Positions 13,480-43,329 of a stretch of 64,000 nt of DNA are shown one piece after another; within the stretch, counting starts at the first letter, position 1, and each line of letters opens with the position of its first letter. Under the pieces are notes generated by a model, which saw only the letters and a program-made list of their open reading frames with translations, made no database searches and had not been told where the DNA came from. The stretch covers positions 1 to 64,000 of the forward strand of contig JAIYAP010000031.1 in assembly GCA_027488935.1 (NCBI GenBank), written 5' to 3'. The position numbers and the translations under genes are program-made. The stretch comes from Saprospiraceae bacterium (GTDB taxonomy: Bacteria > Bacteroidota > Bacteroidia > Chitinophagales > Saprospiraceae).

Positions 13480-13485
13480 TCAATT

Positions 13486-14728: not shown

Positions 14729-14730
14729 GG

Positions 14731-26064: not shown

Positions 26065-26082
26065 TTTCAAAAACAAATTCAA

Positions 26083-27120: not shown

Positions 27121-27156
27121 CAAAATCAAATAAAAACGCCCTGAAATACATCCCTC

Positions 27157-27930
27157 ATGCTCAAAACAATCCTGCTCGATCCCGACCCGCAACGCCTAAA
27201 TGAAAACGGCGCCTTTTTGGAATCCTTGCGCTACGACCTGCATATTACACTGATGTGCCTCGACAACCGCTACACTCAGGCTGAATTACAAGTGCTTGCG
27301 CCACAAGTCGTATTCGTGTTCGTAGACCGCATCGGCCACGCCCTAACATTATCTTTACTGGATCGCCTCAAACCGTATTCCTTCGATTTGATTTTGCTTT
27401 CCGATACAGAACACATGGCCGCCAAGGCATTTGAATACGGCGCTACCGATTTTGTGTCGGTGCCTTTTTCTAAGGAGCGCCTGGCTGAATCCATAGAAAA
27501 AGTGCGACGCAATCAACAGCGTCGTTTTGCAGCCCTCGACCTCGAAATGTTGTTGAACAGCATTAAAATATCCATCCAAAAATTGCCCAATATTCCTATT
27601 CCGACCATGCAGGGTTATGAGTTTTTGCCGGTATCTGACATCGTGTACGCTGAAGCCGACGGTAGCTATACCTACATATACCTCAAGGACGGCAAAAAAA
27701 TTACGGTTTCCCGAACTCTGAAAGATTTCGAACAAATGCTGGCAGGCCATGCCGTCGTGCGTACACATCAGTCTTTTCTGGTGCATATTCCATATATCCA
27801 GCAGTTGGTAAAAGGCCATGCGCCACATTTAATCATGCGCACAGGACATAAAATCGACATCTCGCGGGCTATGAAAAACAAGGTATTACAAGTGTTACTC
27901 GGACTGGATATGAAAGAGGGAAACGGATGA
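27157..27930 (+). CDS. LytTR DNA-binding protein with atypical receiver domain
   Basis: This 257-aa protein has a receiver-like N-terminal half and a LytTR domain (about residues 145-250; GYEFLPVSDIVYAEADGSY, VRTHQSFLVHIPYIQQL). The receiver keeps acidic residues near the start (ILLDPDP) and an Asp at position 57 (VFVFVDRIG), but the conserved Lys of the switch region (normally KPF) is Val (VSVPF). It may signal without normal phosphorylation. No kinase is adjacent. It lies just before the secreted-protein genes starting at 28064 and 28850 and is a candidate regulator of them, on position alone. Confidence 0.85.
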   Translation: MLKTILLDPDPQRLNENGAFLESLRYDLHITLMCLDNRYTQAELQVLAPQVVFVFVDRIGHALTLSLLDRLKPYSFDLILLSDTEHMAAKAFEYGATDFVSVPFSKERLAESIEKVRRNQQRRFAALDLEMLLNSIKISIQKLPNIPIPTMQGYEFLPVSDIVYAEADGSYTYIYLKDGKKITVSRTLKDFEQMLAGHAVVRTHQSFLVHIPYIQQLVKGHAPHLIMRTGHKIDISRAMKNKVLQVLLGLDMKEGNG

Positions 27931-28063: not shown

Positions 28064-28717
28064 ATGAAACAATTGCTCTTTTGCTTAGCCTTCCTTTTTA
28101 CCCTAAATCATATCACGGCACAAATGAAAGGCGATCAATTCATTTCCAATGCTCAAACGGCTAAGATCGCCCTTGAATCCAATCCGCCAATTGAACTCCA
28201 AATCATGTTAAATGGTATTTTCATGGGCGAATGTGGAAATCCTAATGATTGCCACCACGAACCTGTCGCCGGGGTTGTAATGGGGACCTTGCAGGATGTC
28301 CGGCAAAATCAGATTCCTAATACAGCAGGGAATGCCACATTCTGGAATAGTGAAGGCTACAGTTTGGTTTGTAATAACTACCCGTACGAACCCGCAACAT
28401 ATAGTAATGGCGACCAAGTTGACCTTAGCAGAATTGCCCAAAATATACAAAAATCACTTTTTTATTCCATTGACGCTCAGTCGTTAATAAACAGGCAGTA
28501 TGAATTTGTTGTTTCGTTCAACCTTGGGAATCGGCATCAGGACAATCCCTTTGCGGGTATTGGCGATCACTGGTTACGCCGAGGAGATGATTTAATAACA
28601 ATGCGTGTAAACCTCAAAGATTATTACAATTCCAAGTCGTTACTCATCGGGCCATACGAGACGAGTAGTGACCGTTGTCACGAATACTTTTTGCAATTTA
28701 CCATGGTTGGCCAATAG
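28064..28717 (+). CDS. Secreted hypothetical protein
   Basis: This 217-aa protein has a signal peptide ending at about residue 20 (LNHITAQ). The mature part contains a Cys/His-rich loop (GECGNPNDCHHEP) that could bind metal or form disulfides, plus Asn-rich beta-strand regions (YNSKSLLIGPYETSSDRC). I do not recognise a family. It has its own promoter and lies 132 nt before the ten-gene cluster, on the same strand, so it may belong to that system. Confidence 0.65.
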   Translation: MKQLLFCLAFLFTLNHITAQMKGDQFISNAQTAKIALESNPPIELQIMLNGIFMGECGNPNDCHHEPVAGVVMGTLQDVRQNQIPNTAGNATFWNSEGYSLVCNNYPYEPATYSNGDQVDLSRIAQNIQKSLFYSIDAQSLINRQYEFVVSFNLGNRHQDNPFAGIGDHWLRRGDDLITMRVNLKDYYNSKSLLIGPYETSSDRCHEYFLQFTMVGQ

Positions 28718-28849: not shown

Positions 28850-30703
28850 ATGAAAACCTTGCTTACCCTGTCCGCACTATACCTATTGGTCAACCCTGCA
28901 TTCAGCATTCCCATGTACGACGAGGGTGCCATGGTAATAGCCGGCGTACAATTGCTGCGCGACAAGGACAACGAAAACGAATATTATTATTTGCCACAAT
29001 ACCCCCATTTGGCGGCCAAACCCGATGGTAGTTTCGAACTCGTTTGTTTGAAATACGTGGGCAGCAACAGCCAAACCAGCGGCGGCTTGTTCCATGCGCT
29101 GGTAGAATTTACGCTGCCGGAAGCCTTGCAGGCTAAAGTAGAAAAAGAACTGAAACGACTTAAACCTAAAGCCCGCCTCGTGGGTGCTGTGCGCCTGCTG
29201 GAGCCGCAAACTAAGGAAGGCGACGAACGGCTGCCCAGTTTCGAAATCGTGTCGGCTACGCTTAACAACCGCAATGGCGACAATCCCTTCACGCGCGAAG
29301 TCGTGAGTTCGGGATACGCGCCTTTCACGCCTGGCTCCCGCGCAGCCGTAGCCGCCATGCTCAACCAACGTGGCGCCACCCTGCTCTGGAATTCCCTAAA
29401 CGGCCCTACCTCCGATGTTTCCGTCACGGTACACGGATATTACGAAGCCGCTGTGAAGGGATACAACGCAATTGTTACAGCCGATATGAGTATTATTTAC
29501 AAGCATTTCAGTGAAATAAGCAATAAACAGGAGGGCTATACCAAACGGCAAATCCGAAATGTGGTCGATTCGTTGCAACGGCTCGGCGGGATCAAAGTAA
29601 CGGTGGATGACCGCTCGCAATCCCTAGGAATCAAGGCAGGTGAAATGGAAAGCATCCTCAATTTGGTGACGAATAAATTAGTGGAAATCATGTTCAATGC
29701 CGAAACGGGCTGGGCTAAAACGCCGGACAAAGTGGACGCTACCCTGGGTTTTGACCAACGCGGCCGCCAGGGCGATAAATCGGAAGGCGCGCAAATTGTG
29801 TCGGATATAGGCGATGCGCTGTACAATGCCAGTCCGTTCGGCTGGATGAATCCGCGCAAAAAAAATGAAAACCCTGCTTATGTAACAGACGATCAATACT
29901 TATTGAAAAACATAAAAGACGTCCGGATTAGCAAATTTTACCTGAATCTGAGCAAGGCTACGACCATTAAAGTGCCGCTGCACGCTTCGGGCAATTTGGG
30001 TGGATTGTACGACCAGTTTTCCAACGATAAGCGTTATTTCCGGATTGTGGACATGAATGACCCGGATTTTGAAAAGCGTGAAGTCAATTTTCACCTCGAC
30101 GGCGCTTTTACCGGCGGTTTCGATGAATTGGTCAATTTCGTATCGGTCAATTTCCGGAAAAAATACTTAAGCGACGCCGCACAGGAAGATGCTGTCGGGC
30201 AAATCAGCCTATCCGCCAAGGAAATTAAAGCCGGTACGCTCTTTAAAAGTGTGGCATACCCACGCTTTGGTTTGGCGGAAAAAGATTTTACCGGTTATGA
30301 TTACCAGGTTGTTTGGAGCCTAAAAGGCAGCGATAAAGTGATTCGATTCCCTGCTTCACCCGATCAATGGCTCACGGCGCATGATCCCGACATTGTATTG
30401 TCCCTGCCTTTTGAGCAAATGGAGATTGTGATTGATGCCGACCGCAGCCAGTTCGACAAAGCCGGATACGCATCTGCCAGCCTGAGTTTTGCCACCACAC
30501 GGGCCGGACAAAAACAGATTATCCGCAATGTGATTTTGCGCGCCAACGACACCGAATCGACCAACCGTATTTTCTTATACCGCGATTCCGATCAACCCGT
30601 CGTGTGCCAAACAACCTGGTACAACAACGAAGGCGAACGCAAAATCCCGCTTCAACAACTCAATGGCACCTACCTGCGGCTAATACCACCCAAAAACGAC
30701 TAA
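28850..30703 (+). CDS. Cluster gene 1: large secreted YYYLP-family protein
   Basis: This 617-aa protein has a signal peptide (LVNPAFS) and no known domain. It carries the family landmarks: YYYLP at residues 45-49, then PDGSFELVCLKYVG; a GGLFHALVEF strand; SGYAPFTPGS; a helix-strand-helix region (VVDSLQRLGGIKVTV); and the C-terminal module starting NDPDFEKREVNFHLDG (about residue 404), then YDYQVVWSLKG. It ends in an Ig-like beta region without a T9SS sorting domain, so it is likely periplasmic or outer-membrane associated. It starts at the ATG at 28850; a TTG three codons earlier is less likely. It is the first of ten closely spaced genes. Confidence 0.8.
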   Translation: MKTLLTLSALYLLVNPAFSIPMYDEGAMVIAGVQLLRDKDNENEYYYLPQYPHLAAKPDGSFELVCLKYVGSNSQTSGGLFHALVEFTLPEALQAKVEKELKRLKPKARLVGAVRLLEPQTKEGDERLPSFEIVSATLNNRNGDNPFTREVVSSGYAPFTPGSRAAVAAMLNQRGATLLWNSLNGPTSDVSVTVHGYYEAAVKGYNAIVTADMSIIYKHFSEISNKQEGYTKRQIRNVVDSLQRLGGIKVTVDDRSQSLGIKAGEMESILNLVTNKLVEIMFNAETGWAKTPDKVDATLGFDQRGRQGDKSEGAQIVSDIGDALYNASPFGWMNPRKKNENPAYVTDDQYLLKNIKDVRISKFYLNLSKATTIKVPLHASGNLGGLYDQFSNDKRYFRIVDMNDPDFEKREVNFHLDGAFTGGFDELVNFVSVNFRKKYLSDAAQEDAVGQISLSAKEIKAGTLFKSVAYPRFGLAEKDFTGYDYQVVWSLKGSDKVIRFPASPDQWLTAHDPDIVLSLPFEQMEIVIDADRSQFDKAGYASASLSFATTRAGQKQIIRNVILRANDTESTNRIFLYRDSDQPVVCQTTWYNNEGERKIPLQQLNGTYLRLIPPKND

Positions 30704-30706
30704 ACC

Positions 30707-32431
30707 ATGCGTTTTATACTACTTTTATTATTGGTTGCCTGGTCGGGCGGCAATGCATTGACTGCCCAAATGCTAAGCATCGACCGAGGTGTGCGCGTAG
30801 CTGGCCTTTGGTGCTTTCCTTTGGCCGACGATCCGCTGAAGTTCCGCTACCTGCCCGACGAGGCCCGTTTGGGTCAAAATGCACAGCATGAACCGCAGTT
30901 TTCCTTCATTCGATATGTCAATCCGATGGAAAAAACGGGGCGGCAGGAAAACACCATGGTGGAATTAGGCGGCGGCGGCGTCTTACATTTTTTGGTGGAA
31001 TATAGCGCCGACTCGAAGCGCATCAAACAAGCCAATGCCGCGCTGCGCGAACAACTGCAAAATGACACCGTACAATTACTTGGCCCGGTCGTTTTCAAAG
31101 AAGGGCGCTTTGCCTTGGTTTCGACGATACTACAACCCGATGGCCAAAACCAAGAGCGCGTGCTCATGCGGGCGGGCGCAGCGCCCGTGCTCGAAGGTTC
31201 CAAAATTGCACTTTCGTTCGAACTCGATCCTACCCGTTCGCGGCTGCTGCTCGAAAGTTTCAAGATGCCCACGCCCGATGTGTCGCTCATGTTTGAATTG
31301 GGTTTTGACGGTCTGAGCGATGCATTTAAAGCCAGTTTGAATGTGGATTGGGAGGCAGTAAATAAATATGAAAAAATGCAGGCGGCTGCCACGGTGTATT
31401 TTGTAAGCGCCGATGTGGAGCGCACGGTGCAGGAAATGGTCAAAAACAACAGCATAAAATTGGAAACCAGCGGCTCCGATGAAAAAAGTGAAGCCATGCT
31501 GAGTGCCGTGTACAGCAAAATCACGGACTTGATTTTTGAACGTGAACAGGAACCTGTACCGGATCAAACTTCAGGCAACATGATGGAAAACATGATGCGG
31601 CAATTCGGCGGCGGCGGACAAGGCAGCGGCTCCAATCCTTTCCGTTTTTTGTCGGTCAGCGCCGGTTACAAATACCGCAATATTAAAAAAGGCGGCAAAA
31701 GCACGATTTCGTTCAACAGCCGCAACAACGTTGATCGCAAACATTTGATCGCGTTCAACATTGGCAACCTGTACCGCCGCTTCGGTACCGACGAGCGCTT
31801 TTTCAAAACCGTGCGCCTCGATGATCCGGATTTCCAAACCCGCGAAATCCACATCGGCATCGACGGCGAACTGGTCCCCGAATTCGATCGGCTTATCAAC
31901 AGCGTAACCGTGCAATTGCGCAAACGCCATCAAAACGGGCAGGAAACCCTGCGCGAAGCCCGTATACTCAAATCTTCCTTGCAGGCGACCGGGCCGAGCG
32001 TCATTCAATATGGTTGGCAGGGCGACACCGACCGACAGGCCTGGTACGCTTATGATTACAAGGCGATTTACCAGTTTCAGGGCGGCAAACGCTATGAAAC
32101 CGATTGGGCGGCCCAAAGCGGCGCCATGATTAACCTGTTTGTGCCGTATGAGCGCCGGTCTATCCGCCTCGAAGGCGACGCTGTACTGCTGCATAACCTG
32201 CAAGTGCGTGCCATGCAAGTAAAGATTGACTATCCGTTTTTCGGCGAAACCCGACGCTTGCAACAAACCTTGAAACCCGATGAATTGCTGGCAGCCAAAC
32301 CCTTTGAAATCACCCTGCCACGTGGAGCGGGCAGTTTTAACTACCAAATCACCTGGTTTTTGCAAGACGGCAGCAGTCGCAACGCAAGTGGAACATGGGA
32401 AAGCGATATTCTTTTTGTGGACAACCTTTAA
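30707..32431 (+). CDS. Cluster gene 2: large secreted YYYLP-family protein
   Basis: This 574-aa paralogue of gene 1 begins 3 nt after its stop. It has a signal peptide (GGNALTAQ) and the landmarks FRYLP at 46-50 followed by PQFSFIRYVN; GGVLHFLVEY; AGAAPVLEGSKIAL; a helical part; a Gly-rich linker (FGGGGQGSGSN) at about residue 300; and the C-terminal module DDPDFQTREIHIGIDG (about 370), then YDYKAIYQFQGG and a second FNYQITWFLQDG near the end. No catalytic motif is visible. The order of shared blocks matches genes 1, 3 and 4, although pairwise identity is low by eye. Confidence 0.8.
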   Translation: MRFILLLLLVAWSGGNALTAQMLSIDRGVRVAGLWCFPLADDPLKFRYLPDEARLGQNAQHEPQFSFIRYVNPMEKTGRQENTMVELGGGGVLHFLVEYSADSKRIKQANAALREQLQNDTVQLLGPVVFKEGRFALVSTILQPDGQNQERVLMRAGAAPVLEGSKIALSFELDPTRSRLLLESFKMPTPDVSLMFELGFDGLSDAFKASLNVDWEAVNKYEKMQAAATVYFVSADVERTVQEMVKNNSIKLETSGSDEKSEAMLSAVYSKITDLIFEREQEPVPDQTSGNMMENMMRQFGGGGQGSGSNPFRFLSVSAGYKYRNIKKGGKSTISFNSRNNVDRKHLIAFNIGNLYRRFGTDERFFKTVRLDDPDFQTREIHIGIDGELVPEFDRLINSVTVQLRKRHQNGQETLREARILKSSLQATGPSVIQYGWQGDTDRQAWYAYDYKAIYQFQGGKRYETDWAAQSGAMINLFVPYERRSIRLEGDAVLLHNLQVRAMQVKIDYPFFGETRRLQQTLKPDELLAAKPFEITLPRGAGSFNYQITWFLQDGSSRNASGTWESDILFVDNL

Positions 32432-32446
32432 ATCACGTATAAAACA

Positions 32447-34495
32447 ATGAAAACCAGACTTTTATTTCTTTCATTTTTACTACTGCTCGGCCGCGTACAG
32501 GCACAGGTGGTGGATGATTTTAACAAACTAAGCGTCACACTTAAGGACGGCACGACGGTTACGCTGTACGGAAAGGCTTGGGATATTGGCGACAGAACGC
32601 CGGAGCAAGCCCAACAGCAGGGCGTTTTGAAAGACAAATCAATTGCTAAGGACGGGCACTATTATTACTTACCTGCCAACCTGAGGCTATCCAGAAACAA
32701 AAACGGCATCCCTCAGTTTTTGCTGCTAAAGTATGTGACGGACGAAAAAACGCCCGACCGTGACATGAGCGGCGCGCTTATGCACTTTCTATTAGAGTGG
32801 GGATTGAACGAGGCTCAGAAAAAAGAATGCGAGGAATTGTTGCGGAAAGCAAAACCGCTAGAACCAGATGCAAAAATTATGGGGCCAGTCATGTTATTTA
32901 CCCCCGACGGCGATTCCTTTACCATTACATCTGCCGTCGCATCAGATAAAGGTTTGTCCAATTCAACCGTTTTGACTTCGGGGCGCGCGCCTCAGTCGGA
33001 AGGGGGGAAAATCGCCATCGCCGCTAATATGAACAAATATGGCGCGCAGCTTATGGCCGCTACCTTAGATAAACCCAAGGGCAAAACCTCCGTAGGCGAC
33101 CTTTCCGTCTCCTTGAACTTTAAATATCAAACCCGCTTACCGGCTATCAAAGGCCGGGTAATATTCGACTGGGAAAAGTTAGCAAAAAACGTGTTGGCTG
33201 ACACAACACAACAAACGGTTCAGAAGAATTTAGGCGGCCTAGTAGGCGCTGTATTTATCGCATTTACCGGAAATACAGCTACATGGGATGAAAACAAACT
33301 GGTTAACAAACAAACATTGTACGAAGAACTTTCTCAAAAAGGAATCATCACGGTTGAACTGCAAGAGACTTTTACAGATGACCGCACCAAAGCGATTCGG
33401 GAAAGCATTTTTGATATGTTTACCCAAACAATTAGCAAGGTTTTCGAAAGCTATCAGGATAAAAGCTCTGAGGATCCAAACTCGCGTTTAGATAACGAAG
33501 CGCAACTTAACCGCCAATCAGCAACCGAATACCAACAAAAATTCAAGGAAAAACGTGTTGACTCGGATTTTAAAACCTACCTCCAATCAATACGGGAGGT
33601 TCAGCGCAAAGGTCGTCAGGTGATAGAACTGAATTATGCCTTAGCCGTCGAACACCCTTTTACGATGACCGAAAATATCCTTAGCTGGTACGAAGATGCT
33701 AAAAAATACAATGATGCTTGTGTTAGTCGGGTCATCCTGAATGATCCGTTTTTCCAGCGTTTGCGCATTCAATTTGTACTCGACAAAGACATGGTTGACA
33801 TCTTCGACCAAGAAGTCAACTATGCCACCGTCAATATCCGCAAAAAACGCAACGAAGGCGGCGATTTTACCTCGCGCGTTACCCTCGACAAAACTTTTGT
33901 AAAGGAAAACGGCGTACAAGCGGCCGTTACCTACGCGGGCGGCGGCGACAAAAACCCTGACATGTACGAATATCAGGTACAGTACAGTTTCCGGGGCGGT
34001 AATGTGTTCCCAAGCAGCCCTAACTGGCAGCGCGGCACGATGGAAGCTGTAACGCTTTACCCACCCATCAAAATGCACAACGTGGAGTTTGAGTCGGACC
34101 TGGACCAGATGAAGGAGTATAAAATTGCGCGCGCCACCATGCAGATTCGCTACCGCCGTTTGGGCGAGGAATACCAGGCAAGCATACCCGTTTCGCCCAC
34201 CAAAGGCCAGGCCCTTGCGAGCAAAGCCATTTTTATGGACAAAGACTTGAAGGGTTTTGCCTACCGCATCATTTATGACCACAAAGAGGAAGGCAAATTA
34301 GCCACCGAATGGGAAGCCAAACTCGGCGCCATCGACTACCTGTATGCACCTGTTCCAGAGGCTTTTCGGGATAAAGAATCGGAAGCCTTCAAAAAAGCCA
34401 AACAGTTAGGACAAATCATTACGCCGAGCAGCAGCACGGAAGGCAAAGTGGTGGATAAGGTTTTGGACGCTTTTAAAGTATTGTTTGACAAATAA
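32447..34495 (+). CDS. Cluster gene 3: large secreted YYYLP-family protein
   Basis: This 682-aa paralogue starts 15 nt after gene 2. The signal peptide ends near residue 20 (GRVQAQ). The landmarks are YYYLP at 72-76 followed by IPQFLLLKYVT; GALMHFLLEWGL; SGRAPQSEGGKIAI; a helical region (YEELSQKGIITVELQETF); a central charged coiled stretch (about 330-390); and the C-terminal module NDPFFQRLRIQFVLDKD (about 430), then YEYQVQYSFRGG. Here the RE of the DPxFxxRE motif is LR, a variation. A helical tail of about 50 residues follows the last beta region. Function unknown. Confidence 0.8.
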   Translation: MKTRLLFLSFLLLLGRVQAQVVDDFNKLSVTLKDGTTVTLYGKAWDIGDRTPEQAQQQGVLKDKSIAKDGHYYYLPANLRLSRNKNGIPQFLLLKYVTDEKTPDRDMSGALMHFLLEWGLNEAQKKECEELLRKAKPLEPDAKIMGPVMLFTPDGDSFTITSAVASDKGLSNSTVLTSGRAPQSEGGKIAIAANMNKYGAQLMAATLDKPKGKTSVGDLSVSLNFKYQTRLPAIKGRVIFDWEKLAKNVLADTTQQTVQKNLGGLVGAVFIAFTGNTATWDENKLVNKQTLYEELSQKGIITVELQETFTDDRTKAIRESIFDMFTQTISKVFESYQDKSSEDPNSRLDNEAQLNRQSATEYQQKFKEKRVDSDFKTYLQSIREVQRKGRQVIELNYALAVEHPFTMTENILSWYEDAKKYNDACVSRVILNDPFFQRLRIQFVLDKDMVDIFDQEVNYATVNIRKKRNEGGDFTSRVTLDKTFVKENGVQAAVTYAGGGDKNPDMYEYQVQYSFRGGNVFPSSPNWQRGTMEAVTLYPPIKMHNVEFESDLDQMKEYKIARATMQIRYRRLGEEYQASIPVSPTKGQALASKAIFMDKDLKGFAYRIIYDHKEEGKLATEWEAKLGAIDYLYAPVPEAFRDKESEAFKKAKQLGQIITPSSSTEGKVVDKVLDAFKVLFDK

Positions 34496-34510
34496 ATCCG
34501 CTGAAACACC

Positions 34511-36628
34511 ATGAAAAAGATCATTTATAGTTTTTCCCTCGCATGCCTGTGCGCCTGCGCTGCGCAAGCGCAACCAGCGGCCAACAATGAAGCCGTGAAC
34601 TACCCGGTTTTTCTCAATATTTCTGAAAACTTAGGGTTGGCTACCGCTTTTCAGTCAAAAGACGACCCAAATAGCTGGTACCTGCTTCCAAATCAGGTAC
34701 GCCTCAAAACAAACCCCGACGGACGACCTATGTTCGGATTCCAGCGTTTTGTCAAAAATGTGCGTTCCGGTCCGGAAGACAAGGAAAAAGAAGAAGGCCT
34801 TGGAGGTGGCGTTGTCTGGTTTACCGTCGGGTTTGAACTGACCCAGGAAGAACGCCAGGACATGGAACAGGAATTGCGCCGCCGCAAAAACGGTAGCCCC
34901 AAAATTGTTGGTTCCATCGCCTACGAAAGTGGCTCCGTGGAACTCATCACATTTGGTCGTGAAAAAACAGGCGAAGATCGCACCCAGGTGCTCGGCATCG
35001 GCAGCGCCCCGCTAATGGACGGCGATGCCATCTCCGTGAATATTATTCTGGATGCTGAAAACGCCACTAAACTGTGGCAAACCTTCAAATTGCCGCACCC
35101 CAACATCGGTTTGAACTTCAACATGCAGGTCCGAGGCTATCACACACCCGTGAGCGCGACAATCAAGATGAATACGGATAAAATTTACAACAATGAGCGC
35201 ATGGCGGGCGGTATGAACGCCAGTGTCCGTGAAGGCAACAACAATGTGTTAGTCGGCGCGGAAATTGAGAGCATCACGCAGGAACTCATGGACAAAGGCG
35301 CAATCGTGGTTGAACAAACCGGCGATATCGGTGAGGATTTCGAAGAAATCAAAAAGACGGCGACAGAGGAATTTATTCGCGCCTTTATGCAGCCCGTTTC
35401 TATGCAGGACATGATGCAATACGCCCAGTCAATGCGCGGCAGCCAAAGTCCGCTCGAACGCGCGACGGGTTTGCGCAGTCAACAAATAACGGAAAATACC
35501 GCAACGCAGGATTTAACCTCCCTGCCACCTGCTGATTTTGAGGATCCCGATGACGCGTCTTTCGAAACGAGCGGCAATACAGGAAATGACCTGCCCACCG
35601 CAAGCACAGAACGCATCCCACCGCGTAGCACGCCACCCCCTGCACCCGGTGCTGATCCGGAAACGGGCGAAGGAGAAAACGGAAGTACGACACCGGCTGC
35701 CGATAGTTCACAATCAACCCCTACAAATGGACGTACCAACGGACAAACAAGCACGGCCCCTTCAAGCGGCGGCACCACCCGACAAACCACAACGCGTGGT
35801 AACTCCCCCAGAGGGCAACGTAGGAATAACGGCAACTCACGTAGCGCAGTTGGCATCGGCATGTACGCAGGATTTCAATTTAACAAGATCAAACAGCAGC
35901 GTAATTTCAGCATCAGCTTGTCCAAAATCCGGGCAGTGCAGCGCGGACGTACCATTACCAGTATGTTCCCGCGTATCCCGGCAAATTGTATGCAGGAAAT
36001 CAACCTTTGGGATCCGCTTTATCAGCAACGCGAGTTAGTCGTGATGGTCGACGGTTTCAACGCCCGCGATTTTGGCGCTTTTGTAAACTACGCAACCGTC
36101 AACTTGCGCAAGCGTTCGCCGGGCGGAGAAGTCCGCACCGATGAAGTCCGCATTGACCGGAACAATTTTAGCCGCGAGGGCAACCATTTTAAACTCATGT
36201 ACGGATGGCGCCCAGGCGACAATGACCGCAGAACCTGGCTCGACTATGAATACCAGGTAAACTGGAGTTTTTTCGGCGGCGCAACCGTTGCAAGCCCCTG
36301 GACTGCCGCTAACCAGCCTGCGCTCAACGTATCGCCGCCATTTCAAAAATACACCGTCCGGGTTTCGGGCGATCGTGAAACGCTGCGTACCCGGGAAGTG
36401 CGGGTAGTGACCGTAAAAATTTACTACACCATCAACGGTACGCGCAACGCCCGCATGCGCACGATCAACGTAGCCCGCGACGAAGCATCGGCGGACATTG
36501 ATGTCATACTTCCGAACACGTTGACCTACGACTATGAAATCATTTGGCAACTAAGCGGTAATCGGACCCGCACGACGGGTGTACAACAAGCGCAAACGCT
36601 GGAATTACTGATTGATGAAATGCCTTGA
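34511..36628 (+). CDS. Cluster gene 4: large secreted YYYLP-family protein with disordered linker
   Basis: This 705-aa paralogue starts 15 nt after gene 3. It has a signal peptide (CACAAQAQ), WYLLP at 56-60 followed by RPMFGFQRFVK, GGVVWFTVGFEL, GSAPLMDGDAIS, and a helical part (ITQELMDKGAIVVEQTG). A Pro/Thr/Ser/Gly-rich linker of about 85 residues (near 365-450) separates it from the C-terminal module: WDPLYQQRELVVMVDG (about 499), YEYQVNWSFFGG and YDYEIIWQLSG at the end. The linker suggests two folded bodies that move independently or span a gap in the envelope. The family's role is not known. Confidence 0.8.
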   Translation: MKKIIYSFSLACLCACAAQAQPAANNEAVNYPVFLNISENLGLATAFQSKDDPNSWYLLPNQVRLKTNPDGRPMFGFQRFVKNVRSGPEDKEKEEGLGGGVVWFTVGFELTQEERQDMEQELRRRKNGSPKIVGSIAYESGSVELITFGREKTGEDRTQVLGIGSAPLMDGDAISVNIILDAENATKLWQTFKLPHPNIGLNFNMQVRGYHTPVSATIKMNTDKIYNNERMAGGMNASVREGNNNVLVGAEIESITQELMDKGAIVVEQTGDIGEDFEEIKKTATEEFIRAFMQPVSMQDMMQYAQSMRGSQSPLERATGLRSQQITENTATQDLTSLPPADFEDPDDASFETSGNTGNDLPTASTERIPPRSTPPPAPGADPETGEGENGSTTPAADSSQSTPTNGRTNGQTSTAPSSGGTTRQTTTRGNSPRGQRRNNGNSRSAVGIGMYAGFQFNKIKQQRNFSISLSKIRAVQRGRTITSMFPRIPANCMQEINLWDPLYQQRELVVMVDGFNARDFGAFVNYATVNLRKRSPGGEVRTDEVRIDRNNFSREGNHFKLMYGWRPGDNDRRTWLDYEYQVNWSFFGGATVASPWTAANQPALNVSPPFQKYTVRVSGDRETLRTREVRVVTVKIYYTINGTRNARMRTINVARDEASADIDVILPNTLTYDYEIIWQLSGNRTRTTGVQQAQTLELLIDEMP

Positions 36629-36665
36629 TTCTAAAATCTATTTGTCTCACAATCAATTTTTTATC

Positions 36666-37268
36666 ATGAAAAATTCAAAAATCATACGTTGTTTATATCT
36701 TCTTTTTTTGGGTATTCTTTTTTCACTTTATGCCGACGGCCAAACCAGGGCGCTGTCGTATCTTGAAGCGCCTGATGCAATCATAATGACTTTCCACGAC
36801 GGTGAGGTCGAAGCAGGCATCGTATTGAGTTATGATCGTGCTGACGAAACCTATGAGGTGCTGATCACTCCTGGAACCGGGATACTAAAAATTTCTCGGT
36901 CTGGTAAAATTGATTTTGTAGAAAGCCCCAGAGGCATAGACCAGCTCCGCCGAGGCACACAATTACGAAGTTGGAATTATTTTCGACATAATATAAGGAT
37001 TTTTCGGGTTGGTTGCATATCCCGCGTGGTGTTATCTTTTGTCGGGAACACGCAGGACACCTATTTCGGTGTTGTCCTAAACTACAGACAAAGACTCGGA
37101 TACAGAATTGTCTTTTTTGGACCCTTGGATAGAGAGACCCAGTATTTTGTAGAAATCGGTACCAATTTACGCGTGCGCCGAACCAATGTTCCCTCCCTGC
37201 AAGGCAAAACTTTGAGTCGAATGAATGTTATGACGCAAGTCGGCCCTGACAATACTTTCCCGTATTGA
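36666..37268 (+). CDS. Cluster gene 5: small secreted protein, paralogue of gene 6
   Basis: This 200-aa protein has a signal peptide (LFSLYADGQ) and two similar small-barrel-like halves: GEVEAGIVLSYDRADETYEV in the first and YFGVVLNYRQRLGYRIVFFG in the second. This repeating pattern recalls Tudor/SH3-like folds, but that is inferred. The C-terminal tail (RVRRTNVPSLQGKTL, then GPDNTFPY) is nearly the same as in gene 6. An upstream in-frame ATG at 36612 is inside the end of gene 4; 36666 gives a proper signal peptide. Confidence 0.75.
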   Translation: MKNSKIIRCLYLLFLGILFSLYADGQTRALSYLEAPDAIIMTFHDGEVEAGIVLSYDRADETYEVLITPGTGILKISRSGKIDFVESPRGIDQLRRGTQLRSWNYFRHNIRIFRVGCISRVVLSFVGNTQDTYFGVVLNYRQRLGYRIVFFGPLDRETQYFVEIGTNLRVRRTNVPSLQGKTLSRMNVMTQVGPDNTFPY

Positions 37269-37311
37269 TTTGCCCATGTTCACTCAATTCATCCAACAAA
37301 AACAAAAGAAT

Positions 37312-37869
37312 ATGCATTCAATATTTTCATCTATAGTCCTGTTATGCTGCACTCAATTGCTTTTGGGACAAAATGTTTCAAAAGCTCCGGACGCGGTTGT
37401 TATGCGCTTGGCGAATGGTTCTTTACGCGCAGGAATCGTACATCGCTTTGACCCCCAAATGCACACCTATGAAATCCTGTTATCGCCCGGCAGTACCCGT
37501 TATTTAATCAAAGATTCGGGTTACATCAAACGCGTATCCGATGGTGCTGGCGCAGATCAAGACGTTGCAAATACACAATTAAGTCGCTGGAGATATCTGC
37601 AACATAACACAAGACTGTTGCGCATAAGTCGAGGCACCAATGTCGTTTTGTGTTTCTTATCATCAGATGACGCATATATTGGCCAGATACGCTCCTACCA
37701 TCCTACACGCGGTTATCGAGTATTGTTCTATGGCCCAGGCAATTATTTTGTTGAAATCACCCCTGATTTAAGGGTCCGCCGGACCAATGTGCCAAATCTT
37801 CAAGGGCAAACGCTTTTCCGAATGAACATCATGACAGAAGTCGGCGCCGACAATACCTTTCCATACTAA
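37312..37869 (+). CDS. Cluster gene 6: small secreted protein, paralogue of gene 5
   Basis: This 185-aa protein has a signal peptide (CTQLLLGQ) and the same two-part pattern as gene 5: GSLRAGIVHRFDPQMHTYEI and YIGQIRSYHPTRGYRVLFYG. The tail RVRRTNVPNLQGQTL with GADNTFPY is almost the same as its neighbour's. The tail is more conserved than the rest, as would be expected for a docking or sorting element. The TTG at 37270 would give a longer product without a good signal peptide, so 37312 is chosen. Confidence 0.75.
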   Translation: MHSIFSSIVLLCCTQLLLGQNVSKAPDAVVMRLANGSLRAGIVHRFDPQMHTYEILLSPGSTRYLIKDSGYIKRVSDGAGADQDVANTQLSRWRYLQHNTRLLRISRGTNVVLCFLSSDDAYIGQIRSYHPTRGYRVLFYGPGNYFVEITPDLRVRRTNVPNLQGQTLFRMNIMTEVGADNTFPY

Positions 37870-37896
37870 CTTCCTCATTTTCAATTTTTTATTACC

Positions 37897-38736
37897 ATGA
37901 AACTTTTTTTTACCTTTAAATCACTCCACAAAATTGCCCTTTGCCTGCTGCTCTGCGCAGCAAGCTGGTATTCCTTGTCGGCTCAAACCGGTAAGCCCGA
38001 AACAACCGATACCAGTTCGATTTCCAGCTCGGAATTCCTCGACCTCTTCTCCCTTGGCTACAACGGCGCTTCGCCAAAAATCAACCTCAAAACCTACAAT
38101 TTCAAAGCCTATATCGGTAAAACCGACTTCGATTTTTACCTGTTCAACAGCGTGCCTGCCGTGATTCCCGACACCGCCGTGCAAAAACGCTATATATCAA
38201 ACGACATCCTGCAACAGGTAGGCGGATTGTTCAATATTGCCCTCGGCAAAGTGGCTTATTTCGGCCATGGCGACTCCGAACTGAAATATGTAAAAGGTGC
38301 CCAAATGGATGTGCGCATCGGCGGAAAGCTCATGGAGGCACCCTATACAACCCAAAAAGAAGGTAATCGGTTTTTCCCGGCCTTTCAAACCTCGGCCGAT
38401 TTGCGGTATTTGATTCCGTTGGTGGCGCCATCAAAAGGTAAAAAAGACATCAAGAAGAGTATCAAGGATAACATGGTTGGCAACTTGTCTTTTCGTTTTC
38501 AAGGCAGTTTGGTTCAGTTTTTCCCCAGCAGTCAGCGCGATGATCCTTATTCCCGCTATTTCCTTGTATATGAAGGAAACAAACCGGTTTATCCCAAAAG
38601 CACCCTGTTTGCAGCCAATATTGAGATGTTTTTCTACATCACCAACAAGGTATACATCAGTGCGGGGTACTTTTTCTCCAATGACCCTTTGATCGACAAG
38701 TACCCATTCTTTTCAGTGAGTTACGGGCATCGGTAA
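37897..38736 (+). CDS. Cluster gene 7: putative outer-membrane barrel protein
   Basis: This 279-aa protein has a signal peptide (SWYSLSAQ) and alternating beta-strand segments (FKAYIGKTDFDFYLFNS, NLSFRFQGSLVQFFPS, KVYISAGYFFSNDP). It ends FFSVSYGHR, close to a terminal strand of an outer-membrane barrel, though the last residue is basic rather than aromatic. It could be the outer-membrane anchor or channel of the cluster. No known family was recognised. Confidence 0.65.
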   Translation: MKLFFTFKSLHKIALCLLLCAASWYSLSAQTGKPETTDTSSISSSEFLDLFSLGYNGASPKINLKTYNFKAYIGKTDFDFYLFNSVPAVIPDTAVQKRYISNDILQQVGGLFNIALGKVAYFGHGDSELKYVKGAQMDVRIGGKLMEAPYTTQKEGNRFFPAFQTSADLRYLIPLVAPSKGKKDIKKSIKDNMVGNLSFRFQGSLVQFFPSSQRDDPYSRYFLVYEGNKPVYPKSTLFAANIEMFFYITNKVYISAGYFFSNDPLIDKYPFFSVSYGHR

Positions 38737-38793
38737 GAGCGAGGTTTGCCTAAGGCTTTTTTGTTTAAAAACACTTCGAATTTTTATAAAACC

Positions 38794-40257
38794 ATGAAAA
38801 AACAACTTCTTTTCTGCGCAGTCGTGGCTGCAGTCTTGCTGATTTCCTTTAGCATCGGCTGTAAAAAAGACGATTCGACCACAGGTTGCCCTGATTGCCC
38901 TGTCATTACCGTTATAACACCTACAAGCGGCTTACCGGGCACCGAAATCACCATAACCGGCAAAAATTTTACCGGCCTGGAATCCGTCCTGTTTGACGGC
39001 GCCAATGCGGTAGCCATTATGCCCTCCAAAACGACGGCCACCCAAACGGTGGTTACTGTTCCTGATATTCCCAATAAAAACGGGCCGGTAAAAGTGAGTG
39101 TATTACGAAATTTCACCTCCGGTAATGTCACTAGTAAGCTTTATTCTACGGAAAATATAACCTTTACGTACACAAGAGCGCCTGAAATTGCCAGTATTGC
39201 CCCTTTATCGGCTAAAAAAAATGAAACGCTCACCATTACCGGTAAATATTTGGGTACATCACCGATGGTGACATTTCCAAACGGCACAAAGGTTTCCGCC
39301 TCCGTCATCAACGACTCGGAAATTCGGGTAGCGGTGCCATCCAAAGCGGGGAACGGCAAAATTCAGGTAGTGACTAGCGGGCAGACGGTGACTTCGGCAC
39401 AGGATTTTACTTATGTGTTTTCATATAGGGTTTCTACGCCGTACCAATTGGATGGCTATGTTGATGATTTGAATTTTTCAAACGGGCGATTTATTACTGA
39501 GTTCTCTGGAAATACCTGGGCTGGGCTTTTATTTGTTCCAGTAACAGGCCCATTTGCACAATTAAACTTAAGTTCACCCAATCTTGGCCCTAGAGGCGGC
39601 GGATTCAGGCCGGATGGGAAATTTGTATTTAGGGATGCAGATAGTGGACTTTTGGTTTCTGTCTCACCCGGGAGTAATGTTGTTTCCAGCAGTTTGGGAT
39701 ATCCAGGTGTGAGCGGTTGGTCTGTCGACATCGCGTGGCTTACAAATGAGCAGATGGCACTAATTACTTATGAGGTTTTCGCAACATCACTAAATATCGT
39801 TCAAATTACCGGGACCACGTTACCAATCGTCACTCCTGTAAACATGTATCTTCCTCAAAGTGTGTGTGTATTTAATGGCAAAATTTATGCAACAGGTCGC
39901 TATGATGTAAGTGAAATTATTTCAAATGCAGCTTCTAAAATAGCAGGCACTAATTTGATTTCTGGCTATATAGACGGGCCTTTATCTATGGCTCGTTTTG
40001 GTTATTTAGACGGGATTGCGATGAATGTGCCGACTAAAATATATGTAGTAGACTACGGAAACCATTGTGTTCGGTTAATTGACCTTGATACAAATCAAGT
40101 TAGCACTATTGCAGGAACTGGTAATGCCGGATTTGCCGATGGGCCAGGGGCCTCAGCTCAATTCAACTTTCCACATGGTATTTGCTTCGATAATGAGGGA
40201 AATTTATTCATATCAGATTATGAGAACAAAGCCATCCGTAAAATAACCATCGAATAA
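38794..40257 (+). CDS. Cluster gene 8: IPT/TIG and NHL-repeat lipoprotein
   Basis: This 487-aa lipoprotein (lipobox SFSIGC, cysteine near residue 23) has two IPT/TIG Ig-like domains (ITPTSGLPGTEITITGKNF and IAPLSAKKNETLTITGKYL) and then a beta-propeller with NHL repeats near the end (MNVPTKIYVVDYGNHCVRLI, GICFDNEGNLFISDYENKAI). Such proteins bind other proteins or glycans on the cell surface. The N-terminal part has GC-rich codons like its neighbours, and the propeller part from about 39.43 kb is clearly more AT-rich, suggesting separate origins of the two halves. The start at 38794 matches the lipoprotein signal. Confidence 0.85.
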   Translation: MKKQLLFCAVVAAVLLISFSIGCKKDDSTTGCPDCPVITVITPTSGLPGTEITITGKNFTGLESVLFDGANAVAIMPSKTTATQTVVTVPDIPNKNGPVKVSVLRNFTSGNVTSKLYSTENITFTYTRAPEIASIAPLSAKKNETLTITGKYLGTSPMVTFPNGTKVSASVINDSEIRVAVPSKAGNGKIQVVTSGQTVTSAQDFTYVFSYRVSTPYQLDGYVDDLNFSNGRFITEFSGNTWAGLLFVPVTGPFAQLNLSSPNLGPRGGGFRPDGKFVFRDADSGLLVSVSPGSNVVSSSLGYPGVSGWSVDIAWLTNEQMALITYEVFATSLNIVQITGTTLPIVTPVNMYLPQSVCVFNGKIYATGRYDVSEIISNAASKIAGTNLISGYIDGPLSMARFGYLDGIAMNVPTKIYVVDYGNHCVRLIDLDTNQVSTIAGTGNAGFADGPGASAQFNFPHGICFDNEGNLFISDYENKAIRKITIE

Positions 40258-40267
40258 ATCAACCGCT

Positions 40268-42223
40268 ATGAAACCAACATTTTTGCACCTGCTCCTTCTC
40301 CTCTTCCCAACCATTCTCGTCGCCCAAACCCGCAACTGCAATTACTCCGGCCTCGAGGATGCCCAATTGGTCAAAAAATCGGTCTCCGCCGAAGAATACT
40401 TGGATAAACTCAACCAGTCGATGCCGGGCGGTCCTTCCAAATTGCCTGCTTACCCGGGCGAGGTGTTTCGCAAGGAGCAGGCGCAAAAAATGCCACAGCC
40501 TTCCGTGAATGGCGTTTCGATATTATGCGACGAAGCCACCAGCATGCGCGGCGACATCTATTACCAAAACATTGATCGCGGCTTTTTCAGACTGGAACTG
40601 ATGAATGCAAAGTACGAGATCATGCCGCAAATGCCGCCTCTTACCATACCCGTATCGGAAGGCGTCATGGAATTTACCCTGAAACTTGATGAAAAATTAC
40701 CAGCCGGAGCGTCCTTCCGAACGGCTTATTTGAAAATCACGTACTTGAAAAAAGAGGACAGCCGCGACGGCCGATCCACCTGGTTTGGCTTGTACAAAAA
40801 GTGGAAAGCGCCGGAACAAAACCAGGCTGCCCTGCGCCTGCGCCTGACGCCCGTGCTGTCGGCTGCGCAACTAACTGCAACAAATCTACCTGTTCCCGGC
40901 AAAACCGCCGTATCGGAGTCTCCTGCTACGCCCAACAGCACTGTACAGCGAACCACCCCGAACAACTCGAATACCCCCGGCGGTGTCAATATGAACGACC
41001 ATATTTCGCTGTTCAGCAATATTCGCTCAGATGTCGCTTTCCAGAACCCCGGCGCCATTTCGCCCATTCAAACCGGCTATTTGTTCAAGGATAAAAACCC
41101 TGCCTCCGACGTGTATTATTACGCCCCAGCCGCCTATAACCTGCGCTGGGATGCCGATTCTGGTTTTGATTTTGGGCTCTTGTACGGTAGCGCAAGCAGT
41201 CCTAACCAGGAGGGCAAAGTGGATATGCACGCCGGCCTGGGAACCGGGATTACCAATGAAGAACAACAGTTTTTGCAACGCTTGCTGCAAGCCCAGGTTG
41301 GCGCGGACAAATCGCCGGAGCTGCGGCCCTTACTGCCTGAAAATCCGCTCGTTACCCTGCAAGGCGAAGGTTTTGTGCTCGATAAAGTGACGGCCATCGC
41401 GGCTTCATCCATTTATGATCCGGTGAAGGCCAATTGGCAAACCGACGTGCCAGGCTCCAACGACATCATTGCGGCCCTTAAAAACGACATCGGGATCAAC
41501 GGCACGGTGACTTATCGCCAAACTGACTTTTCGTTTAGTGCGCCCGCCAATGCACGCTTAGGCCATCCTGCTAATTTCGGCGCGATTACACCCGATTGGA
41601 CCGAATGGCGCAGCAAGGGCTGGAAAAACAAACTGCCTTTTCCGGTTCAATTTCAGCACTTGCACGTGTTGCTGTTAAACGGCAAAGTCCCCTGCATTTA
41701 TTCCTGGAAAATTGCGGGCGCTGATATTCCGCCCGGCGGACAAGCCCAATTCGATGCCGCCGCTTTCCCTACATGGCTTGAAACGGATAAACGTGTGCTG
41801 AAAGTCTGGTTTGAGTACCAAATTCCACCCTGTACGCCTTGTGCCGAGGAAGTATTGGATGCATTAACCGGCGGCACTTCCTCCAGCCGGGAAAAATGGA
41901 TTCAGGTACAATCGCTGGGTATTCTCGGAAAATACAAGGCAAGGCTTCTGAAAGTCACCCTGCGTTCCACGATGGCCGACCCTCGTGGGAAATCAGCCAG
42001 GGAGGTGACGGCAACGATAAACCAGGATTATCAGGATGTTAGCGTAGGCCCTTTATACGCCTGGATGGACAAAGATGTAAGATATGAAGTCCGAATCACC
42101 TTGGTAACCGACGATAAATCCGTTGAGAGCGCCTGGGTTCCTAAACGGAATGAACAGCAGTTTATCGACGTTGAATTCATGAAAACGGCTTTTAGAAATT
42201 CCTTAAAACACCCTTCAGAATGA
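40268..42223 (+). CDS. Cluster gene 9: large secreted protein
   Basis: This 651-aa protein starts 10 nt after gene 8. It has a signal peptide (LFPTILVAQ) and mostly beta structure. It lacks a clear YYYLP motif, but its C-terminal strand VRYEVRITLVTDD resembles the closing strands of genes 1-4. The middle contains a Thr/Asn/Pro-rich linker (about residues 215-245). A CxxC (PPCTPCAEE, about residue 523) may form a disulfide. It overlaps gene 10 by 4 nt (ATGA), so the two are translationally coupled. Function unknown; probably a component of the same assembly. Confidence 0.7.
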   Translation: MKPTFLHLLLLLFPTILVAQTRNCNYSGLEDAQLVKKSVSAEEYLDKLNQSMPGGPSKLPAYPGEVFRKEQAQKMPQPSVNGVSILCDEATSMRGDIYYQNIDRGFFRLELMNAKYEIMPQMPPLTIPVSEGVMEFTLKLDEKLPAGASFRTAYLKITYLKKEDSRDGRSTWFGLYKKWKAPEQNQAALRLRLTPVLSAAQLTATNLPVPGKTAVSESPATPNSTVQRTTPNNSNTPGGVNMNDHISLFSNIRSDVAFQNPGAISPIQTGYLFKDKNPASDVYYYAPAAYNLRWDADSGFDFGLLYGSASSPNQEGKVDMHAGLGTGITNEEQQFLQRLLQAQVGADKSPELRPLLPENPLVTLQGEGFVLDKVTAIAASSIYDPVKANWQTDVPGSNDIIAALKNDIGINGTVTYRQTDFSFSAPANARLGHPANFGAITPDWTEWRSKGWKNKLPFPVQFQHLHVLLLNGKVPCIYSWKIAGADIPPGGQAQFDAAAFPTWLETDKRVLKVWFEYQIPPCTPCAEEVLDALTGGTSSSREKWIQVQSLGILGKYKARLLKVTLRSTMADPRGKSAREVTATINQDYQDVSVGPLYAWMDKDVRYEVRITLVTDDKSVESAWVPKRNEQQFIDVEFMKTAFRNSLKHPSE

Positions 42224-43329
42224 TGCGTGGAAAATTCCTGCCGGCATTTTTTTACCTTTTTTGCGCGTTTGGACCGCCCGCCTCCGGGCAACCGGATTTG
42301 AACCGGGCGGCCCAAATGGAGCAATGGCTGGTGATTCCCGATTATGCCCAACCCAACCGATATTATTTCGCACCGGGTAAATTGCAACTCGCGGTTGATG
42401 CGGCGGGCAAACCTGACGCCATGTTCCTGATGATGCGCTATACCGGCACGGAGCTCGACGCACGGGCCAACCGCATTTTTTACAATAGTTTGTTTCAGTG
42501 CCGCGTCGTGATGGAGCAAATCGGCGGCAAACGTTTGCAGGAAATTCGCCAAAAACTGGAAGCCCAAACCGGCCGGCCTATTTCGCTCGATCCTTTGCCA
42601 ATCTGGAATGTTGAAACCCAACTCGTGGTGCCATCCGTAAACGGTTCAGAAAAAAAACTGAGCGCGGTGGTAGAAGAAGAAACACAGGCCCCAAGCGGTA
42701 ATTTTTGGACGGAGCGGCTTTTTACCGTAAAACTCGGCAATGAAGATGCACAATTGCTTCAAAAAGCGCTGTCGCTTAAGCAAACAACCTTGCACATACA
42801 GTACACGTACCACACGCGCGTGGTTTTGAGCAAACGCAACGAACAAGAAACCGCCCTGCGCACACAATCAAACGATACGCTTTCGTTTTCCCGAAAAGTT
42901 GAAGTGACCAAAGATTCATCTTCGACGCTGGCACCCGTTTTTTCCGATGCATTTGCCCTCGCTATCGACCTTGAAAAATACCCGGACCTGATGCGCAAGG
43001 TGGATATTAATAGCCAAGCGCCGCCCGGTTATGCCTTGCTGGAAATACGCTGTTACGATTTCAACAATGCCTTGCGAAAGGATTTGTTCGCCAAACGCAT
43101 CGAAATAGAAGCCGAATCGGTAGGCGGGCAAAAAGTGGTGATTCGCAAAACGTTTATGGCTGTACAGCCGGATATTTTTGTACAGTTTGCCCGATTTCAA
43201 TACGCCGTCAAATTAGATCGGCCGTTTCGCTACCGAATTGTGGAATTATCGACCGGGAAACAAAATCAGCCTGGGCCTTGGGTGACACAGAAAAACTGGA
43301 ACGCGTTGATTGACATTAGTTTGAAATAG
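42220..43329 (+). CDS. Cluster gene 10: shorter YYYLP-family secreted protein
   Basis: This 369-aa protein has a signal peptide (FGPPASGQ) and a divergent N-terminal landmark (YYFAP at 48-52, followed by GKPDAMFLMMRYTG) in the same position as in genes 1-4. It is too short to hold the full C-terminal module but ends with a similar strand (FRYRIVELSTG). It may be an ancestral or reduced family member. It is coupled to gene 9 by a 4-nt overlap. A GTTTGA/TCAAAC hairpin (43319-43337) covers the stop codons of this gene and the convergent FMN gene, which are separated by 2 nt. Confidence 0.72.
   Translation: MMRGKFLPAFFYLFCAFGPPASGQPDLNRAAQMEQWLVIPDYAQPNRYYFAPGKLQLAVDAAGKPDAMFLMMRYTGTELDARANRIFYNSLFQCRVVMEQIGGKRLQEIRQKLEAQTGRPISLDPLPIWNVETQLVVPSVNGSEKKLSAVVEEETQAPSGNFWTERLFTVKLGNEDAQLLQKALSLKQTTLHIQYTYHTRVVLSKRNEQETALRTQSNDTLSFSRKVEVTKDSSSTLAPVFSDAFALAIDLEKYPDLMRKVDINSQAPPGYALLEIRCYDFNNALRKDLFAKRIEIEAESVGGQKVVIRKTFMAVQPDIFVQFARFQYAVKLDRPFRYRIVELSTGKQNQPGPWVTQKNWNALIDISLK

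Follow-up and report, generated by a model that had tools for sequence, protein, structure and literature searches.

The 64,000-nucleotide stretch of DNA analysed here (the window; positions 1 to 64,000 of contig JAIYAP010000031.1 of a Saprospiraceae bacterium, assembly GCA_027488935.1) carries ten same-strand open reading frames (ORFs) at 28850-43329, which we number g1 to g10. We find that g1-g4 and g10, probably joined by g9, belong to one protein family, that these genes recur in the same order in other genomes, and that the position beside g4, occupied in the window by the unrelated genes g5-g8, is usually taken elsewhere by a peptidase gene, the kind of which varies. We tentatively propose, at somewhat less than an even chance, that the conserved genes encode the core of an undescribed secreted hetero-oligomer, a protease-coupled assembly used in biological conflict. 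The layout given in a preliminary description of the sequence holds: the ten ORFs are separated by 3, 15, 15, 37, 43, 27, 57, 10 and -4 nt, and all ten products have predicted export signals, scoring 2.07-3.27 by hydropathy, the only method applied, a heuristic that takes the most hydrophobic stretch of 12 residues within the first 35 (the first 30 for relatives). The genes are as follows.

g1, 28850..30703, + strand: exported family member of 617 aa, orthologous group 1 (tree, paralogy, hydropathy)
g2, 30707..32431, + strand: exported family member of 574 aa (tree, structural model, fold searches)
g3, 32447..34495, + strand: exported family member of 682 aa, orthologous group 3 (tree)
g4, 34511..36628, + strand: exported family member of 705 aa, with a long linker between its halves, P/S/T/G-rich by reading (tree, linker lengths)
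g5, 36666..37268, + strand: small exported protein, first cassette gene in the peptidase slot (identity to g6, GC content)
g6, 37312..37869, + strand: paralogue of g5 (identity; GC 0.450)
g7, 37897..38736, + strand: exported protein, suggested earlier to be a possible barrel, matched in its own genome only among 149 searched
g8, 38794..40257, + strand: putative TIG and NHL lipoprotein, last cassette gene (Pfam, GC content)
g9, 40268..42223, + strand: conserved core gene of 651 aa, probable family member (16 further rows, two of them from one genome; alignment, hhalign)
g10, 42220..43329, + strand: short family member of 369 aa, adjoining g9 (hhalign, profile)

All six pairings of g1-g4 match in phmmer, with E-values from 8e-53 (best) to 1.4e-16 (worst), in line with the earlier view that the four are paralogous. 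The motifs listed for them are right in substance, with exceptions among individual motifs. A YYYLP-like motif (YYYLP, FRYLP, YYYLP and WYLLP) and G-x-A-P-x-x-x-G are present in all four, P-x-F-x-x-x-K/R-Y/F in all but g1, and Y-D/E-Y-x-V in all but g2, where the final residue is A; DPxFxxRE is exact only in g1 and g2. A helix-helix-strand-helix block is present at residues 215-276 of the g2 model. Gene 10 is indeed a short relative, since its pairwise BLAST matches are weak (E 0.035-0.07) but its match to a family hidden Markov model is clear (1.7e-6), and local hhalign to the family gives 99.7% with orthologues and 95.9% alone. The sixth member, overlooked previously, is probably g9. This protein has a YYYLP-like block mid-protein (about residues 270-360), which is kept in its orthologues, and a C-terminal Ig-like match; local hhalign gives 80% to g10 and 48% to the family C-terminus. 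Six of the ten genes would thus probably fall into one superfamily. With g4 as query, relatives within the window genome are found only at this cluster.

Pfam and NCBIfam scans covered all ten genes, PHROGs scans g2, g5 and g7, and a PADLOC scan g2 and g9. Neither Pfam nor NCBIfam gave a convincing match for g1-g4, g9 or g10, PHROGs gave none for its three queries, and phmmer with g1 or with an 80-row profile gave none among PDB sequences. In the library scans made, no known family is matched by g1-g7, g9 or g10, the weak rows being at chance level. An AlphaFold2 model of g2 (predicted local distance difference test score, pLDDT, 86; predicted template modelling score, pTM, 0.65) has a beta-rich N-terminal half with helices, followed by FN3/Ig-like domains. 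Foldseek against the PDB returns generic multi-Ig/FN3 chains at template modelling (TM) scores <0.3, BFVD likewise holds no outstanding fold match, and the best VIA row (Z 7.0, none at ≥8) aligns the C-terminal 83 residues with anthrolysin O. This cytolysin match spans one Ig-like domain, and we infer no pore function from it. Among the fold rows no gasdermin, type IX or type VI secretion system (T9SS, T6SS) protein stands out (PorU is one low-TM row), and absence from such lists excludes nothing.

Synteny in other genomes is readily found. Clusters of the exported type occur in 26 genomes or contigs including the window (25 further, mostly Bacteroidota; five loci found twice were merged before counting), of which 23 (the window and 22 others) show all three of the g1, g2 and g3 types; G024 shows g3 and g4 types, and L096 and L103 show g1 types only. 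In 22 of these 23 clusters the order is g1, g2, an optional pair termed gS and gN, one or two g3, and one or two g4, with g9 and g10 in front or behind. The departing cluster, L095, reads g1 g3 g2 g2 with no g4-type row. Two further peculiarities are that g9-g10 lie on the opposite strand in L084 and that the G030 cluster was pieced from three contigs. Wherever g9 and g10 are both visible (16 clusters), they adjoin. The window copy, g1 g2 g3 g4 (g5-g8) g9 g10 on one strand with g9 and g10 adjacent, has the order that defines the core, and its core genes are intact ORFs.

The depth of this arrangement is apparent from an unrooted, quick-search tree of 80 long members of the 90 collected (the other 10 having extended starts, cut ends or near-duplicates), which excludes genomes with G handles. 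All 19 g1 rows and all 20 g3 rows lie on one side of a branch each (Shimodaira-Hasegawa-like approximate likelihood ratio test, SH-aLRT, 100 in both cases); g2 forms a 20-row group (SH-aLRT 100) and the g4 type a 21-row group (SH-aLRT 99), 8 rows of which BLAST had labelled g2. By this tree, g1-g4 are four orthologous groups, normally all present, and each long gene of the window falls within its own group. Distinct subunits that predate the lineage split and have been kept together favour a heteromer, in which the subunits would be in contact. The heteromeric envelope complex of the preliminary description is thus borne out in part, by the lack of known-family matches in the scans made, the synteny and the four orthologous groups; it took the ten genes as one set, and lacked the peptidase slot, the gS-gN pair and the relatives without signal peptides. 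Window g1 groups with rows from L083, L085, L086, L089, L093 and L095 (7-row set, SH-aLRT 99) and not with that of the same-genus L090, which suggests horizontal exchange. The groups also differ in the linker between the two halves of the protein, which has a median of 123 residues (47-200) in the g4 group versus medians of 41-56 elsewhere; by reading, it is P/S/T/G-rich in window g4 and in one member from G546.

A peptidase gene adjoins g4 in 19 of the 23 clusters in which this slot is visible (G024 is counted here and L088 is not). Three mutually unrelated kinds are represented. An M43 peptidase occupies the slot in four clusters, by Pfam in G015, G074 and L101 and by BLAST (2e-11) in G024, where it is a 139-residue fragment without the motif. 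A C70 papain-like peptidase does so in another four, by Pfam in L083 and L084 (1e-17 and 2e-20) and by 69-73% identity to L083 in L085 and L086; in L101, a C70 domain is fused to the M43 domain. The remaining 11 (G030, G064, G260, G280, G301, L089, L092, L093 and L098-L100) carry an HExxH family, seven scanned proteins of which match no Pfam model. The N-termini of all 19 slot peptidases are hydrophobic (1.91-3.12). As a control, the HExxH motif was counted across 23 loci and is present in 3 of 217 other mechanical ORFs and in none of 165 core ORFs; because the slot ORFs were chosen after the pattern had been seen, this count describes an enrichment and is no blind test. By reading, this metallopeptidase-like HExxH family (among others the slot genes of L089, L093, L075, L078, L099 and L044) shows HTQ...NEGI, and the members scanned are without a Pfam or NCBIfam match. 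In L095, a metagenome-assembled genome (MAG) titled Deltaproteobacteria, a caspase with an export-like N-terminal segment (18940-21009, +; PF00656, 2e-39) lies three genes past the family genes.

A second enzyme may be associated with the core. The protein gS (~230 residues) equals the family N-terminal half alone (hhalign 100%); it directly precedes gN in 14 of the 23 clusters and stands alone in 3, and 6 have neither (the window, L089, L091, L093, L095 and L101). We considered gS as an immunity protein for gN and dropped this idea because gS is present without gN in those 3 clusters. The AlphaFold2 model of gN, built with 12 rows (pLDDT 86, pTM 0.82), has no significant Foldseek row. In a second-look alignment, VIA places it with the T6SS effector TseH (VCA0285, 6v98) at Z 12.9 and a root-mean-square deviation of 3.4 over 152 residues, followed by YiiX (2if6) at Z 10.4, CLN5 at 6.7 and nothing else above 3.0. 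H34, H115 and C158 are invariant in the 12 rows. As modelled, gN has a permuted NlpC/P60 (papain-type) fold with His before Cys, and it would be a candidate lipase, acyltransferase or amidase. Among related permuted enzymes, which include T6SS effectors, some are described as binding lipids or acting on them (PMC3142127, PMC12994826). Pfam and NCBIfam gave nothing convincing for the gN proteins scanned, and outside the clusters gN is rare (2 of 296 Bacteroidota genomes, one a 39-residue match). In G525 its domain forms the C-terminal end of an Rhs protein (L130:10424-12043, +; TIGR03696, 1.6e-14), which also has a weak Lnb_N match in Pfam (0.0019).

In the window, the slot is filled differently. 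Genes 5 and 6 are the paralogue pair previously described (48% identity, E 2e-51), and g8 is, as was claimed, a putative TIG/NHL lipoprotein (Pfam, TIG 2e-17 and NHL 2e-12; lipobox SIGC, by eye). None of g5-g8 has a BLAST match in other clusters, and we therefore dropped them as core genes. Genome searches covered g5 and g7; in 148 other genomes, g5 has no full relative (one 57-residue match holds a stop) and g7 has none. The GC content of the four genes is 0.440, compared with 0.503 for g1-g4 and 0.511 for g9-g10, although it falls inside the scatter of the other genes in the window (0.460, standard deviation 0.044). Individually, g5 and g8 are at 0.438, and GC at third codon positions (GC3) is low in g5, g6 and g8 (0.400) but not in g7. 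Gaps within the cassette are 27-57 nt versus -4 to 15 nt in the core. With no match in other clusters, no relatives of g5 and g7 and a lower GC content, g5-g8 look like a separate cassette occupying the peptidase slot. They contain no Pfam peptidase and no HExxH or C70-type motif. Likewise, no gS-gN pair precedes g3, the g2-g3 gap being 15 nt.

The exported type is patchily distributed. Including the window genome in each case, matches are found in 6 of 149 related genomes with g2 as query, in 10 of 396 genomes of the order with a 22-row profile, and in 7 of 395 genomes of the phylum with the 80-row profile. A GTDB r220 contig scan with g1 orthologues gave 22 loci, and the related-loci search with g4 alone gave no match. 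Carriers include Neolewinella aurantiaca, Aureibaculum luteum, Lacihabitans, Emticicia, Parachryseolinea silvisoli and Dawidia soli, as well as MAGs titled Eisenbacteria, Armatimonadetes and Deltaproteobacteria. These three are unlikely to be misbinned Bacteroidota contigs because they are GC-rich (0.65-0.66), though a MAG title is no proof of phylum. A short match on a Paraburkholderia plasmid (L125) and a weak match in G804 were also seen.

Some relatives are of a different type, apparently without a signal peptide: 16 read in this way score at most 1.37 on the hydropathy heuristic; the values for three further distant members are 1.29, 1.91 and 2.71. In six of the ten such loci read, a peptidase lies within the cluster or next to it: a caspase in L080, L081, L116 and L123, an EAD1-trypsin in L127 and a C1 papain in L119. 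The G546 locus has two caspases next to three long members, a short one and a g9-like protein; a group of three g9-like signal-less proteins reaches 84% to g9 in hhalign. In G344, in G398 and on a Deinococcus taeanensis plasmid, a single member is accompanied by one large partner and by a caspase (that of Deinococcus identified by annotation and 38% BLAST identity). On a Paracoccus plasmid (L127), five members lie beside the EAD1-trypsin, an EAD1 protein, a PLD protein and an AAA ATPase whose STAND match falls below the cut-off; this cluster continues (11013-15572, -) into a squalene-cyclase-like protein (weak Pfam match), a tyrosinase (by annotation) and a second trypsin-like protein. L118-L120, three genomes of one family, each have one member and a ~710-residue partner, and in L119 the C1 papain lies 350 nt upstream together with a muramidase. 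Muramidase or peptidoglycan-binding parts occur in some relatives. Plasmids of Pararhizobium and Calothrix, like those of Paracoccus and Deinococcus, also carry signal-less members; few of their neighbours were scanned, and these have no Pfam peptidase. A protein at L126:3221-4987 has a C39-like look, by eye only.

How might such a cluster act? We envisage a secreted core, periplasmic or released, of four long subunits (g1-g4), the large g9, with its N-terminal-type block mid-protein, and the short g10, the subunits combining a YYYLP-type N-terminal half with Ig/FN3-like modules. In other genomes the core would be coupled to an exchangeable enzyme, in most cases a peptidase encoded beside the g4-type gene, and often also to the effector-like enzyme gN behind gS, a short subunit with the N-domain only. 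The assembly would dock the slot enzyme and be switched by it. Upon a trigger, the peptidase may cut an exposed inter-domain linker, longest in g4-type subunits and there a natural site for cutting, and the cut may rearrange or release subunits, or release the effector, as in protease-gated conflict systems. In the window copy, the cassette could be a new effector, a peptidase could act in trans, or the cluster could be a variant without protease; four other genes in the slot would hint at a new sort of weapon, defence or surface machine linked to proteases. A bolder version, in which the cluster is the first of its kind, an exported, multi-paralogue, protease-gated conflict machine in which four beta-sandwich subunits form a periplasmic or surface assembly whose activity depends on the peptidase or effector enzyme in the slot, with g5-g8 as an unrecognised non-enzymatic effector or sensor cassette that took the slot over, seems to us doubtful.

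What the data show is a family with four-fold paralogy and conserved synteny, an enzyme slot whose occupant changes, the fold of gN and an unrelated cassette in the window; that the subunits form a complex, that linkers are cut and that the system acts in conflict is inferred. In favour of a protease-coupled conflict assembly are the recurring gene order with its four orthologous groups, the peptidases in the slot and beside signal-less relatives, the caspase of L095, the similarity of gN to TseH and its place at the end of an Rhs protein, the SIR2-TIR, nSTAND1 and WG-repeat genes upstream of g1 in L090, and the published cases of protease gating. Several observations weigh against the proposal. 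No slot peptidase was recognised in the window, L091 or L097 (one gene visible in the last), and neither gN nor the HExxH peptidase, the two enzymes sought there, was found in the window genome, a weak negative since it concerns one genome. Among the signal-less loci, no peptidase was seen in L118, and the proteins scanned in L126 and L124 (two and one) include no Pfam peptidase. Long linkers are confined to the g4 group, where the measured composition is close to that of the other groups (P, S, T, G, Q, N, D, E, K and A at 0.74, versus 0.66-0.71). The kinship of g9 rests on hhalign values of at most 80%. Among the ten proteins put through PADLOC, only the L080 caspase matched and no core-type protein did; no members were found in viral contigs (one g1 pattern scan) or phages (one tblastn search with an L116 member). 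Finally, nutrition would be an equally plausible role for secreted peptidases, and SusC/SusD-like pairs, recognised by eye, flank G064 (divergent from g1), L099 and L100 (>6 kb upstream). The pairs at the flanks of three clusters are listed as follows.

L102:4313-8807, - strand: SusC/SusD-like pair (by eye)
L099:2-3697, + strand: SusC/SusD-like pair (by eye)
L100:2-3682, + strand: SusC/SusD-like pair (by eye)

These last points lead to the strongest alternative, which we nonetheless judge rather improbable: a secreted digestive machine, in which a beta-sandwich scaffold would bind polymers or the debris of prey and bear a hydrolase that changes with diet; the peptidase would do the work, and no trigger would be needed. 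Besides the flanking pairs, the predominance of peptidases with export signals in the slot and the Ig/FN3-like modules, common in binding proteins, would suit such a machine. However, the SusC/SusD-like pairs lie outside the conserved block, gN has an effector-type fold and its domain ends an Rhs protein, and the caspases or EAD1-trypsin of the signal-less relatives make little sense in digestion. It is less probable again that the cluster encodes a housekeeping-type envelope complex for cell-wall or lipoprotein processing or for a surface layer, with an enzyme that remodels the cell's own envelope. The export-like subunits, the muramidase or peptidoglycan-binding parts of some relatives and the fold of gN, some members of which are lipid-binding or lipid-acting (PMC3142127, PMC12994826), would fit. 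A housekeeping role sits poorly with so patchy a presence, with an enzyme type that is swapped between genomes, and with starred branches that part window g1 from the same-genus copy.

The YYYLP proteins could also keep the peptidase encoded with them in check, as substrate-traps or inhibitors, in the manner of alpha-2-macroglobulin. The top Foldseek rows include complement and alpha-2-macroglobulin-type chains, but at TM <0.3, and although a peptidase usually stands beside the core, four conserved paralogues seem excessive for one peptidase, unrelated peptidase folds share the same core, and the window core has none; we consider this very unlikely. That the cluster is an ordinary collection of unrelated exported proteins in an inherited neighbourhood, as the unmatched g5-g8 might hint, is scarcely credible given conserved synteny in contigs titled as different phyla and four deep orthologous groups.

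Gasdermins are single cytosolic pore formers. The cluster differs in having up to six paralogues, multi-Ig proteins that look exported in the main version. The bacterial gasdermin-protease operon resembles it in placing a non-enzymatic protein beside caspase-like or other proteases, sometimes with lysozyme or amidase genes nearby (PMC9612521). As for an adjacent protease that cuts its partner, a peptidase adjoins the core in the relatives and none is recognised in the window, and cutting is only proposed here. A second precedent is provided by the protease-pro-nuclease pairs of Canu and Hachiman/AVAST, where one kind of partner is found with different proteases (trypsin-like, caspase) and canu has Ig-like domains (PMC12799240). 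There the activated partner is a nuclease, whereas the window cluster has no recognised protease, and Pfam and NCBIfam found no nuclease family, such as that of an MBL-fold pro-nuclease partner, among its ten genes. In both systems protease gating in conflict is established, and unrelated proteases replace one another beside a constant partner (PMC9612521, PMC12799240).

Other comparisons concern mainly the relatives. The EAD1-trypsin and AAA ATPase of L127 and the caspases of L116 and L080, beside signal-less members, recall the EAD/STAND and vWA-MoxR ternary systems; an exported paralogue core is not part of the portions available of their descriptions (PMC7159879, PMC8195603), and no vWA-MoxR pair occurs among the proteins scanned. 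With TseH (6v98) and YiiX (2if6), it is gN of relatives that shares the fold and the His-before-Cys order, the window having no gN. Rhs polymorphic toxins share the gN domain, as an Rhs C-terminal domain in G525, but the YYYLP core is a multi-gene set without an Rhs family match. We therefore propose that the cluster works like protease-gated conflict systems, yet it is a member of none of those compared. The earlier statement that no system of this make-up is known agrees with a literature search that found none, subscription papers and preprints being outside its scope.

The core comprises six related proteins, the kinship of one being probable, that no Pfam or NCBIfam entry names; it recurs in Bacteroidota and in MAGs whose titles place them in three further phyla. 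One operon position changes between unrelated peptidase folds and the others do not, a pattern known elsewhere from protease-gated immunity and toxins. The cluster may offer a handle on the roles of secreted C70, M43 and caspase-type peptidases in environmental bacteria, and inspecting the slot beside g4 may serve as a search rule for new effectors.

The surroundings of the cluster add minor observations. The following ORF, 132 nt before g1, may be the first gene of the unit.

28064..28717, + strand: exported protein, family not recognised (no Pfam or NCBIfam match)

A scan for sigma-70 promoters and terminators, as transcript limits, gave no excess over shuffled sequences. Possible regulators lie upstream of the cluster, at 24361-27930 (+): a LytTR regulator (PF04397) and ORFs that by eye resemble a histidine kinase and a LuxR-like response regulator. 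In the same-genus relative L090, a SIR2-TIR protein, an nSTAND1 NTPase and a ten-repeat WG protein (3798-9661, +) are directly upstream of g1. Just after the window cluster, at 44010-45098 (-), is a YhgA-like protein (PF04754) with a run of EGKI repeats, a possible mark of a mobile element. Further on, a low-GC stretch (0.33-0.37) at 58740-62444 (+), with an M48-TPR protein, is unlike the rest of the window.

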